Source of the DNA: a virus
Reading direction: 5' to 3' (one strand)
IMG/VR virus record: IMGVR_UViG_3300042390_000739
Span: 1-21,258 of that record
Length of the DNA: 21,258 nucleotides
In this document: positions 3,046 through 20,295 of the stretch, one piece after another
Layout of the letters: the number at the start of each line of letters is the position of its first letter
Numbering within the stretch: position 1 is the stretch's first letter
Notes under the pieces: model-generated
What the model was told of the DNA's origin: nothing
Seen by the model: the letters and a program-made list of their open reading frames with translations, nothing else
Databases searched by the model: none
Position numbers and translations under genes: made by a program

Positions 3046-3385
3046 GACTATTGAGTTACAAGGTGGTCAACCCCGGAGTTGCAGTTTCTTAGGCTGCTAG
3101 CGCAAATGCTTCTTCGTTAGCGGCGCTAACGGTGAAGTTGATCTGTGCATACTCGAATGTATTTGCGTTTGCATTTACGTTTTTTGCTTGATTAACGGTC
3201 ATCGCCTACCGTGTTGCCGTCTCTACTATCTCACCCAATCGATTACCGGAGCAGGCCCATTATAAAGTATACTAGCGGCTATGCCATCTTACTATCCCAG
3301 TATGTCGGGTGTTGGCTAATGTACTTTATGGTGGACCTGGCGAGATTCGAACTCGCGTCTTGAATGCCTTCGCTTTGAAGGGATT
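3046..3385 (-). ncRNA. ssrA: tmRNA, circularly permuted (two-piece)
   Basis: tmRNA rescues stalled ribosomes and tags the nascent peptide for proteolysis. Read on the minus strand, the acceptor piece comes first: P2 strand 3360-3366, T arm GCGAG-TTCGAAT-CTCGC, then CAGGTCC-A-CCA ending at 3329. An intervening segment (3259-3328) carries ATAAAGTA and TACTTTAT, which would extend the acceptor helix in the precursor. The coding piece starts at 3258 with GGGCCTG, which pairs fully with CAGGTCC and includes a G3-U70 wobble, the alanine identity element. D-loop-like GGTAATCGA follows, then TTGGGTG (3232-3238), which pairs with CATTCAA of the acceptor piece, and a stem ACGGT/ACCGT. The tag frame (3172-3089) has resume codon GCA, 27 sense codons, and ends AANEEAFALAA-stop. 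Outer boundaries are approximate. Confidence 0.93.
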
Positions 3386-3396
3386 ACAACAATTTC

Positions 3397-3600
3397 TTAA
3401 GCGGGCTGAATGTTACTTGCCTGCTGTCCTTTTTGACCCTGAGTTACTTCAAATCTTACACTTTGTCCTTCTTGTAGGCTTTTGAAGCCTCCTGAATTAA
3501 TTTGTGAAAAATGTGCAAATAAGTCTGCGCCACCATTGTCCGGTGTAATAAAACCAAAACCTTTGGTGTCGTTAAACCATTTTACTTTTCCTGTTACCAT
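3397..3600 (-). CDS. cspA: Cold-shock-domain protein, CspA family
   Basis: The 67-aa single-domain protein is full length. RNP1 (KGFGFITPD) and RNP2 (LFAHFSQI) are both intact, and the protein starts [18 protein letters not shown]. It is a small cytoplasmic RNA/ssDNA-binding protein, probably an RNA chaperone. The Shine-Dalgarno TAGGAAA is close to the ATG. The gene sits only a few bases upstream of the tmRNA acceptor piece with no terminator between, so the two are likely co-transcribed and the tmRNA released by processing. An exact TATAAATA lies about 70 bases upstream, and the long leader contains an inverted repeat (3642-3656). Confidence 0.95.
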
Positions 3601-3668: not shown

Positions 3669-3676
3669 TATTTATA
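3669..3676 (-). promoter_or_regulatory. Exact TATAAATA late promoter for cspA and tmRNA
   Basis: On the minus strand this matches the T4 late consensus exactly. It lies about 70 bases before the cspA ATG, in a 114-base divergent intergenic region. The following bases ACTTGT match those after the octamer of the GIY-YIG gene (ATAAATACTTGT in both). Confidence 0.6.
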
Positions 3677-3714: not shown

Positions 3715-3993
3715 ATGGGCGATTTCTTTAAATTAGTAGCAGAATTAGGGTTCCCAATAGCAGGAGCAATGGCTGCGGGTTATTTTGTGTTCTTAACACT
3801 AAAATTCATTCTTGCTGGAGTAACCAGCAGTGTAAACGGTATGGGCGGTATTATCAAAGGGCTAGACAGCCGAGTTGATACTATGACAAATCAATTGCAA
3901 CGGATTGATGTTAAAGTAAGTCACGCTCTAGGTTTACAACCAGATTATGACAGGATTAGCCGAGCAGAGCAAGCGGATCAAAGGAAAGACTAA
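3715..3993 (+). CDS. Small one-TM protein with C-terminal helical tail, paralogue of the 4172 gene
   Basis: The 92-aa protein starts with a short cytoplasmic stretch (LVAELGFPIAG), followed by a hydrophobic segment at about residues 13-36, then a probable amphipathic or coiled-coil helix (GLDSRVDTMTNQLQRIDVKVSHAL). The layout resembles the BhlA/UviB holin-like family, but assignment as a holin is only a possibility. It shares GFPI, GYF, an I.-I/L-D-R segment and a final YDRI/YERI-AEQ with the product of the 4172 gene, so the two are paralogues. A clear Shine-Dalgarno TAGGAG precedes it. Its TAA shares one base with the next ATG (TAATG). Confidence 0.8.
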   Translation: MGDFFKLVAELGFPIAGAMAAGYFVFLTLKFILAGVTSSVNGMGGIIKGLDSRVDTMTNQLQRIDVKVSHALGLQPDYDRISRAEQADQRKD

Positions 3994-4172
3994 TGAAGTA
4001 CGTTGATTACGAATGGGATCTACATAAAGATAAGATTGTACTAGATCGAGAACTTAATATCGACAAGTTAGAATGGCGAGCAGGCGATCATTTTGAAATT
4101 AAGAATATAGATGGCAGGGTAGAGTTAGTTAAAGTTGACCCTATAGTAAAATTTGTAAAAGGATACAAGTAA
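3993..4172 (+). CDS. 59-aa conserved phage protein
   Basis: This frame runs MKYVDYEWDLHKDKIVLDRE to VKVDPIVKFVKGYK, joined by TAATG on both sides to its neighbours. It is soluble, acidic and Trp/Tyr-containing, with no membrane segment. I recall similar short MKYVDYEWDL...FVKGY proteins from marine T4-like phages, always without a known function. The tight coupling between the two paralogous membrane proteins suggests it is made in step with them. Confidence 0.8.
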   Translation: MKYVDYEWDLHKDKIVLDRELNIDKLEWRAGDHFEIKNIDGRVELVKVDPIVKFVKGYK

Positions 4173-4525
4173 TGGATCCGGTAGAACTAGTAAACAAATA
4201 TGGTTTTCCTATTGTGGCAGCAGGCGGCATGGGATATTTTATCTACTACGTGTGGACTTGGGTGACCACAGAAATCAAGCCCGTTATAGGACAAGCCAAT
4301 GGAACTCTTATTGCTCTTATTGATCGTATTCGTATGCTTGATAACGATCTTATCAGGTTGAATCAAAAAGTTGAAACGGTCATGGAACTTCGTGGCAAGA
4401 CCATTGAGTATGAGCGTATCAAAGCTGAGCAACAAATTAATAAAGTTTCAGAAGAAGATGATACGCCAATCGGTAAACGTAAGGCTAATAAGCAAGAAAT
4501 TAAAGATGCGTCAGGAGACGATTGA
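4172..4525 (+). CDS. One-TM protein with coiled-coil tail, paralogue of the 3715 gene
   Basis: The product has 117 aa. It starts MDPVELVNKYGFPIVAAGG, then a hydrophobic segment through about residue 34 (MGYFIYYVWTWV), a helical region with heptad-like leucines and isoleucines (ANGTLIALIDRIRMLDNDLI), and a charged tail rich in Lys, Glu and Asp. No catalytic motif is seen. The pattern is common in T4-like marine phages, without assigned function. The membrane topology and neighbours (paralogue and lipoprotein) would suit a membrane-disruption or envelope role, but this is conjecture. Its TGA overlaps the next ATG (TGATG). Confidence 0.8.
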   Translation: MDPVELVNKYGFPIVAAGGMGYFIYYVWTWVTTEIKPVIGQANGTLIALIDRIRMLDNDLIRLNQKVETVMELRGKTIEYERIKAEQQINKVSEEDDTPIGKRKANKQEIKDASGDD

Positions 4526-14307: not shown

Positions 14308-14315
14308 TATTTATA
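14308..14315 (-). promoter_or_regulatory. Exact TATAAATA late promoter before DUF3307
   Basis: The octamer on the minus strand matches the T4 late consensus exactly and is separated from the ATG by TCTTAC only, in a 35-base intergenic gap. Confidence 0.6.
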
Positions 14316-16957: not shown

Positions 16958-17490
16958 TTGTCTAATTCTTCAAATAGATCAATAGCAGAATCAAAGCATA
17001 AATTGGCCTCGGCAGCCATGTCGTCCGTGAGCAATGACCTCACTCGATCGATCAGTTCTTTTTTATTTTCAAATTCATAGTATTTGCAAAGACCTGGGCT
17101 AACTTTGGCAATCATGGCTCCACCAAACATATCTCCAAAGTGTCTTACATAAAGATGCGGAATCAGTTCAACAGCAGATTTTGTGTCAACGTATTCGATA
17201 TATGCTTTAGTGCTAGGTTGTAGTCTAACTGCGTTTCTGTCGAAACTGTATTCTATTTCTAACCAACCTATGTCTTCTACAATTTTTTCTGTTCTTAGAA
17301 TTTTTAAAAGATCATGATCTTTTAACCATTTTTCTAACTTTTTTTCTAATGCTTGATAACAGGCCAACTGATTCAGCAGATATTCATAATATCTTTTGGG
17401 TTCAAGTTGACCTTTGACTAGTTTGCCGGCAAACGATTGTCTTTCGGCTCTAGTATGTGCTTCTAATGTTAATTGTCTTAAATTATTCAC
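16954..17490 (-). CDS. ho1: Heme oxygenase
   Basis: The 178-aa helical protein would open heme to biliverdin, iron and CO. The proximal ligand is His12 in LTLEAHTRAERQSF. FAGKLVKGQLEPKRYYEYL matches the conserved second helix. HLYVRHFGDMFGG (112-124) matches the distal-helix signature YxRYLGDLSGG, with GDMFGG in place of GDLSGG. It is shorter than cyanobacterial HO1 (about 240 aa), in line with compact phage forms. Its start overlaps the clpS stop and its stop overlaps the pcyX start (both ATGA), giving a fixed clpS-ho1-pcyX unit. Heme comes from the host; iron release and pigment production are the two plausible benefits. Confidence 0.88.
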   Translation of the reverse strand: MNNLRQLTLEAHTRAERQSFAGKLVKGQLEPKRYYEYLLNQLACYQALEKKLEKWLKDHDLLKILRTEKIVEDIGWLEIEYSFDRNAVRLQPSTKAYIEYVDTKSAVELIPHLYVRHFGDMFGGAMIAKVSPGLCKYYEFENKKELIDRVRSLLTDDMAAEANLCFDSAIDLFEELDK

Positions 17491-17789
17491 TCTTCCTCCA
17501 TACGAATTTGCAATGGAAATCCATTTGAGCGAGCAAGATTAGTCGACTCAACTGCTTTGATTTCTGCAATTTCGTATGAATAAACACCTGCTACACCACT
17601 TCCACTATTATGTATCTGAAGTGTGATGTCACCAGAGGTCTCTTCTGAATGACGGAAGATTTCAATCAATATTTGTTTGACAAATTCCATCGGGGTTGAA
17701 TTGTCGTTTAGAAAAACAACTTTCCAACGTTTGGGTTCTTCAACACGAATTTTAATTTTTTCGTCTAATTTGATATCAGTATCCGACAT
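17487..17789 (-). CDS. clpS: ClpS adaptor of the ClpAP protease
   Basis: The 100-aa protein is of normal length. Core sequence WKVVFLNDNSTPMEFVKQIL and IHNSGSGVAGVYSYEIAEIK, and the end QIRMEEE, are typical ClpS. ClpS binds the ClpA N-domain, delivers N-degron substrates, and blocks degradation of SsrA-tagged proteins by ClpAP. Of the N-degron pocket residues, Asn28, Asp29 and His60 are kept while the second Asp of the usual NDD is Asn30. The leader has AAGGGAG and a late-promoter-like CTAAATAC 19 bases before the ATG. It overlaps ho1 by ATGA. A phage could use it to steer the host ClpAP; note that the phage also carries tmRNA. Confidence 0.93.
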   Translation of the reverse strand: MSDTDIKLDEKIKIRVEEPKRWKVVFLNDNSTPMEFVKQILIEIFRHSEETSGDITLQIHNSGSGVAGVYSYEIAEIKAVESTNLARSNGFPLQIRMEEE

Positions 17790-20287: not shown

Positions 20288-20295
20288 TATTTATA
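20288..20295 (-). promoter_or_regulatory. Exact TATAAATA late promoter for dnaK
   Basis: The octamer on the minus strand matches the T4 late consensus exactly and lies 61 bases before the dnaK ATG, just after the stop of the tctC gene. The resulting leader of about 55 bases contains CCCATATGGG (20263-20272) and the Shine-Dalgarno hairpin. Confidence 0.55.

Follow-up and report, generated by a model that had tools for sequence, protein, structure and literature searches.

A permuted two-piece tmRNA with a long, hairpin-bearing tag frame in a probable T4-like phage

The tmRNAs of mycobacteriophages Bxz1 and Wildcat and of Bacillus phage G are one-piece molecules. Like the locus described here they are carried by phages, and they have been listed as ssrA genes (PMC4131195). 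A two-piece tmRNA was reported in 2022 for Methylophilales phage Melnitz (MZ577097), in a survey that found tmRNAs in 402 of 18,146 phages and counted two-piece forms as 53 of the 133 unique phage tmRNA structures (PMC9004378). Tag lengths of 8 to 35 amino acids are on record in a review (PMC8012679), and in a 2025 database of 79 phage tmRNAs the commonest length is 10 amino acids (PMC11915505). Phage location, permuted form and tag length alone are already known, and the two-piece phage tmRNA with a long tag that an earlier note on this DNA had pointed out was anticipated on both points by this literature. What appears to be new is the build of the tag, a long frame with a selected internal hairpin that is common to many related phages; we found no description of such a frame in the open-licence PMC literature, and others may have listed such tags.

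The window, by which we mean the whole 21,258-base IMG/VR virus record analysed here, resembles Melnitz in carrying a permuted tmRNA in what is most likely a T4-like phage and in sharing the same CsgF-CsgG-curlin-FecR-curlin block with a CHASE2 cyclase, the cyclases being 38.6% identical. The tmRNAs themselves differ: the Melnitz tag has 14 amino acids (ANDNYVPVDYALAA) compared to 27 in the window, its authors placed it with the Alphaproteobacteria (PMC9004378) whereas the window's best model is beta_tmRNA, and its neighbors are different ones, among them a late-transcription coactivator. Xanthomonas phage XacN1 (AP018399), a jumbo phage of 384,670 bases, also has a permuted tmRNA, unannotated in its record, whose 12-amino-acid tag (ANANTFDYALAA) begins like the window's tag and lacks its insert. 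About 1 kb downstream of that tmRNA lies a GOLLD RNA (L481:2571-2984, 227 bits). The two-piece tmRNA of betaproteobacteria (RF01850) matches the window over its full length, including the 3' domain and terminator, but tags are only 10 to 11 amino acids long in 10 of the 11 clearly permuted Burkholderiales tmRNAs.

Anatomy and setting of the locus

Models and direct reading agree that the minus strand of the window, from 3391 to 3046, encodes a circularly permuted two-piece tmRNA, as the earlier note had claimed. In cmscan, RF01850 (beta_tmRNA) matched with 119.4 bits (E 3.2e-36, model positions 1-331 of 331) and RF04321 (tmRNA_permuted) with 119.4 bits (E 3.3e-23, positions 1-213 of 213), far above their curated cut-offs of 84 and 47 bits, so that the model check proposed in that note was passed over the full length of both models. 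ARAGORN called a permuted tmRNA with an identical 27-codon tag, ANANTFEYAQINFTVSAANEEAFALAA. The window contains an alanine-tRNA-like acceptor stem with G3-U70, a T arm and a CCA end, and a resume codon in conserved context followed by a tag frame with a hydrophobic degron end and a stop codon. The order is permuted, with the acceptor piece encoded 5' of the coding piece and an intervening segment between them. The features, all on the minus strand, are as follows.

3397-3600, minus: cold shock protein (csp) gene (PHROG 729, E 2e-22), ending 5 nt before the acceptor piece
3329-3391, minus: acceptor piece, comprising the P2 3' strand, T arm, acceptor 3' strand and encoded CCA (RF04321 match start at 3391; direct reading)
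3366-3360 and 3238-3232, minus: P2 strands CATTCAA and TTGGGTG (direct reading)
3356-3340, minus: T arm GCGAG-TTCGAAT-CTCGC (direct reading)
3333-3339, minus: acceptor stem 3' strand CAGGTCC, containing U70 (direct reading)
3332 and 3331-3329, minus: A and then CCA, following the acceptor 3' strand (direct reading)
3259-3328, minus: intervening segment of 70 nt with complementary ends ATAAAGTA and TACTTTAT (sequence; precursor fold)
3046-3258, minus: coding piece, comprising the acceptor 5' strand, a D-loop-like segment, the P2 5' strand (3238-3232), the tag frame and the 3' domain
3258-3252, minus: acceptor 5' strand GGGCCTG, pairing 7/7 with the 3' strand, with G3-U70
3178-3173, minus: GTAAAT directly before the resume codon
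3172-3170, minus: resume codon GCA
3089-3172, minus: tag reading frame, ANANTFEYAQINFTVSAANEEAFALAA-stop, 27 codons ending ALAA-stop (ARAGORN, cmscan, direct reading)
3096-3152, minus: long interrupted RNA hairpin within the tag frame (minimum free energy, recodings, covariation in relatives)
3131-3115, minus: apical part of that hairpin, with stem strands CGTTAGC (3131-3125) and GCTAACG (3121-3115) and loop GCC (3124-3122)
3091-3089, minus: tag stop codon TAA
3024-3045, minus: intrinsic-terminator-like hairpin AATAGGACCTTCGGGTCCTATT followed by TTATTTT, also within the beta_tmRNA match
17487-17789, minus: ClpS adaptor gene (Pfam PF02617, E 5.6e-25), context and part of the core of the phage lineage

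Every acceptor, G3-U70, T-arm, P2 and intervening-end element described in the earlier note was found, on a strand that it had left unnamed. Its position of 3046-3385 located the right place, with the acceptor piece starting near 3391, just past the upper bound. The predicted 27-codon frame ending in ALAA-stop was present at 3172-3089, and the tag was indeed long, though at about 2.7 times the usual bacterial 10 amino acids rather than about twice. In the predicted fold of the precursor, ATAAAGTA and TACTTTAT prolong the acceptor stem into one long hairpin. A sigma-70-like site at 3287-3259 overlaps this intervening stem and was judged to be chance. The locus is real, and it is probably a functional phage tmRNA of known kind in a variant form.

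The csp gene lies directly upstream on the same strand in 62 of 99 long-tag loci, and csp and the tmRNA are probably co-transcribed. A T4-type late promoter, TATAAATA, was considered 5' of csp and rejected, an exact copy being present in only 1 of the 58 loci checked, the window itself. This T4 late promoter consensus occurs in the window at 3669-3676, 14308-14315 and 20288-20295, in each case on the minus strand and 5' of minus-strand genes; three matches are not above chance (1.3 expected, 3 reached in 13 of 100 shuffles). The neighboring plus-strand genes at 3715-3993 and 4172-4525 both match phrog_18771, a phage family of unknown function.

No capsid, portal or terminase gene was recognized within the 21 kb of the window, which carries ClpS, Hsp20 and DnaK genes, and whose CHASE2 cyclase has 40 relatives in viral contigs. 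A 383-kb contig with a long-tag tmRNA (G002) has homologues of CsgF, ClpS, Hsp20 and DnaK in the window's order, together with homologues of T4-type terminase, major capsid, portal, prohead protease and sheath proteins; its capsid protein shares 72% identity with its counterpart in Sinorhizobium phage Phosso and 69% with those of PA5oct-type phages. Because of the Melnitz-like order of the block and the synteny and T4-type genes of this contig, we take the window to come, most likely, from the genome of a jumbo T4-like phage. The phage origin asserted in the earlier note is borne out by the virus record itself and by the match of the curli/CHASE2/ClpS/Hsp20/DnaK block to the same T4-type contig. 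Among cellular genomes the window's AhpC is nearest to Burkholderiales (68 to 69%), and a betaproteobacterium is the likely host.

The long-tag family

To sample phage tags without regard to their length, we scanned for the tmRNA T arm and CCA end and took unique permuted tmRNAs as called by ARAGORN. At least 63 were obtained among the matches listed, 43 with tags of 9 to 15 amino acids and 20 with tags of about 23 to 32, and among these 63 no tag length fell between the short class (9 to 15) and the long class (at least 22). Further scans, two of them directed at the tag, enlarged the long-tag set to 99 unique sequences, which belong mainly to two subfamilies: mod1, with TF[EK][YF], to which the window belongs, and mod2, with TFDFSAMSFTGNTV.

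The elements read in the window recur across this set. The acceptor stem pairs at 7 of 7 positions in 87 of the 94 core members, with G3-U70 in 84 of those 87, which supports the acceptor pairing that the earlier note had proposed examining in relatives; for the P2 pairing, the corresponding support comes through full-length model matches only. Six further long-tag tmRNAs tested also passed the RF01850 cut-off. GTAAAT stands directly 5' of a GCA resume codon in 76 of 94 core members, 91 of 94 tags end in AA, and the ends of the intervening segment are complementary over at least 7 nt in 31 of 87 relatives, compared to about 1.5% expected for random 22-mers.

Hosts were also surveyed. The cut-off of the permuted model was passed by 13 of 250 Burkholderiales genomes. 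Long tags were in excess in phages when all 36 host tmRNAs counted were taken for comparison (Fisher p 6e-4); with the 11 permuted ones alone the excess was not significant (p 0.16). The start pattern of long tags was found in 0 of 369 bacterial genomes of the class. When two long-tag tmRNAs and the window region were searched by blastn against deposited phages, the matches listed were short, of T-arm length or to csp, and no long-tag tmRNA was recognized among them.

Several individual loci depart from the common pattern. The one clearly permuted Burkholderiales tmRNA with a longer tag (L263:1410-1770, minus strand, genome G279) has 28 amino acids, GNQPSNLQVMQQFDVPTPANGDQYLNVA, in an uncertain reading frame, and this tag also folds strongly, at -27.1 kcal/mol. 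One relative of the window (L476, minus strand, about 1501-1840) has a main acceptor piece with CCACCT at its end and, within the intervening segment, another T-arm-like copy that is degenerate and ends in CCACCA (GCGAGGTCAATTCTCGCTATATCCACCA); this copy looks like the leftover of a tandem duplication. Five close CHASE2 relatives (L472, L473, L474, L475 and L477) have an unusual T loop lacking TTCGA (GGGGGCAGTGCCC); their tmRNAs were missed by ARAGORN, matched alpha_tmRNA where tested and have tags of 10 to 13 amino acids. The type of tmRNA seems to have been exchanged within one phage lineage.

Folding and covariation within the tag frame

Nearly every long tag frame folds into one long interrupted hairpin, in a region where the Rfam RF01850 model draws no pairs between the resume and stop codons. 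Minimum free energy per nucleotide is -0.243 in long tag frames compared to -0.136 in short ones. The window's hairpin has a minimum free energy of -20.8 kcal/mol, with z of -2.00 against dinucleotide shuffles and of -2.42 and -2.33 in two runs against synonymous recodings. Across the family, the synonymous-recoding z averaged -1.64 over 79 long-tag sequences (97% below 0) and -1.52 over 71 distinct tags (99% below 0), sequences that are related by descent, so that these counts are not independent. Fifteen divergent tags, picked by eye rather than by rule, also folded better than their recodings (Wilcoxon p 9e-5). One divergent long tag (L097) was without excess folding (z +0.72).

Covariation was found in both subfamilies. 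In mod2 the score was 0.272; shuffles gave 0.151, none of 500 reaching the observed score, and slid structures gave no more than 0.145. The mod2 signal rests mainly on one strongly covarying pair. This pair, in the apical stem, joins the third (wobble) base of a Gly codon to the base that opens the codon following Val, and it is A-U in 12 sequences, U-A in 12, C-G in 3 and U-G in 2. An RGAAN subtype of mod2 has a different apical hairpin. In the window's own subfamily the score was 0.241 compared to 0.131 shuffled (0 of 500) and at most 0.154 for slid structures, with six pairs changed on both sides, in a set of 8 related sequences to which the structure of one of them was applied. Computation places a covarying hairpin inside a frame that is itself open and conserved.

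Proposed working and alternative explanations

We favor the reading, at a probability of roughly 0.7, that the locus encodes a functioning two-piece tmRNA and belongs to a phage that is T4-like and probably jumbo, its tag frame being lengthened by a selected hairpin. The anatomy described above comes directly from computation; expression, processing, charging, tagging, proteolysis and the role of the hairpin at this locus are what we infer from it. Cleavage of a single transcript would give two RNAs, acceptor and coding, that remain joined by the acceptor and P2 helices, and the host's alanyl-tRNA synthetase would charge the molecule through G3-U70. During infection, host SmpB and EF-Tu would then deliver it to ribosomes that have stalled on broken mRNAs. 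No SmpB gene was found in 21 long-tag records, many of them fragments, so function would depend on the SmpB of the host. The ribosome would move to the resume codon at 3172 and add alanine plus 27 residues (predicted tag AANANTFEYAQINFTVSAANEEAFALAA) with an ALAA end, a putative Clp-type degradation signal, and on the way it would be obliged to read through the hairpin.

The tag frame would exceed the bacterial length because of the selected hairpin that it carries. In E. coli tmRNA, helix 5 sits close to the mRNA entry channel (PMC8012679). By analogy we suggest, tentatively and at less than even odds for this step alone, that the hairpin may serve as an RNA element, corresponding to a larger helix 5, that would shape or protect the coding RNA at this channel, and that the longer tag would be partly a by-product.

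A role for the hairpin as RNA is favored over one for the peptide, though the present data are compatible with either. If the extension were selected as peptide, its N-terminal part (TF[EK][YF].. or TFDFSAMSFTGNTV) would be where an adaptor or protease, of phage or host, docks, and the hairpin would be secondary. The earlier note's suggestion that the N-terminal half of the tag may alter recognition by a protease or adaptor belongs here, as one possibility among others. Amino acids of the mod2 extension core are indeed kept despite many synonymous changes (pN/pS 0.28, column bootstrap 0.16-0.48), and the other two frames of the core are free of stops in only 4 of 48 and 7 of 48 sequences. The same signal is weak in the window's subfamily, with pN/pS only 0.60, and there the first five tag codons are almost without synonymous change, which points to an RNA constraint near the resume codon. 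The stem pairing, through the covariation of the Gly wobble base with the post-Val codon, itself forces part of the amino acid pattern; the covarying hairpin explains part of the extension's conservation without any peptide function. Proteolysis genes at first seem to offer a partner: ClpS is present in 17 of 20 long-tag records, and several long-tag phages have ClpA and ClpP and one ClpX. But the 20 records were chosen for long-tag patterns, ClpS was about equally common (19 of 24) in CHASE2 relatives of mixed tag length, among them ones with short tags or no detected tmRNA, and we rejected a tie between ClpS and the long tag. Full-length ClpP, also considered as a partner, was not clearly enriched, no SspB adaptor occurred in 18 records, and a search of the PDB with one mod2 tag returned no credible similarity (best E 1.3). 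We consider selection on the peptide unlikely, though the strongest competitor.

It is a good deal less probable that the long tag arose from a short one, such as ANANTFDYALAA of XacN1, by tandem duplication or by insertion, and has been passively kept without a function of its own. Apart from a D/E difference, the window's tag equals the ANANTFDYA and LAA of XacN1 with an insert of 15 codons ahead of LAA. The insert closes with a tag-like stretch, ANEEAFA, and the later part of the whole reads like another tag (ANEEAFALAA). Tag length differs among close phage relatives. An origin of the window's tag by duplication is plausible. Passive retention, however, fits poorly with 99 unique sequences in which the frame is kept, with a conserved mod2 peptide and with a hairpin kept by covarying changes. 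Another rival is that the tmRNA serves as a decoy, sequestering the SmpB of the host and thereby blocking trans-translation there, as has been suggested for the tRNA-like-domain-only tmRNA of mycobacteriophage DS6A. This would agree with the lack of a phage SmpB among the records searched and with the presence of such a form in phages (PMC4131195, PMC11915505). The complete resume context and the tag frame with its C-terminal degron, both of which are conserved, would be superfluous in a decoy, and we regard this explanation as very improbable. Least probable of all is a host-derived tmRNA copy in decay: some relatives do look damaged, but the window's helices, G3-U70, CCA, frame and terminator are all intact, its scores are well above the cut-offs and the family is conserved. 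The damaged relative is L478, a decaying copy that has the start of a long-tag tmRNA (ANADTFEFGALNFT..) and has lost the normal end, apparently by deletion.

Clp proteins enter the favored reading, of a tmRNA with a selected RNA hairpin, as context. ClpA-like proteins in five large long-tag contigs reach 830 to 885 bits against TIGR02639, short of the curated 993-bit cut-off, ClpP is present in several large long-tag contigs, and ClpX exceeds its cut-off in one. Because neither ClpS nor ClpP goes with long tags in particular, and because annotations of PA5oct-type phages already include ClpA and ClpS, we treat these proteins as features of the lineage rather than as evidence of tag-specific partners. 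A wider proposal, doubtful but worth stating, is that these tmRNAs may form a phage-specific class in which the tag frame is a selected covarying hairpin that alters ribosome engagement or RNA survival, and that in some jumbo phages, with ClpA, ClpP and ClpS, they may make up in large part a tag-and-degrade pathway of the phage's own.

Tags of about 10 residues are almost the rule in the Burkholderiales sampled. A large phage lineage that repeatedly has tags 2 to 3 times longer, with RNA structure hidden in the code, offers a natural set of variants for asking about the limits of tag length, whether structure within the frame has a bearing on trans-translation and whether phages redirect rescued proteins. 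The locus is one more indication that large phages possess a set of protein quality-control genes (tmRNA, ClpS, Hsp20 and DnaK, with ClpA and ClpP in some). In the contig that holds L097 (G017), ClpX above its curated cut-off lies beside ClpS and Hsp20 at about 118312-120659, with ClpA and ClpP elsewhere in the contig.
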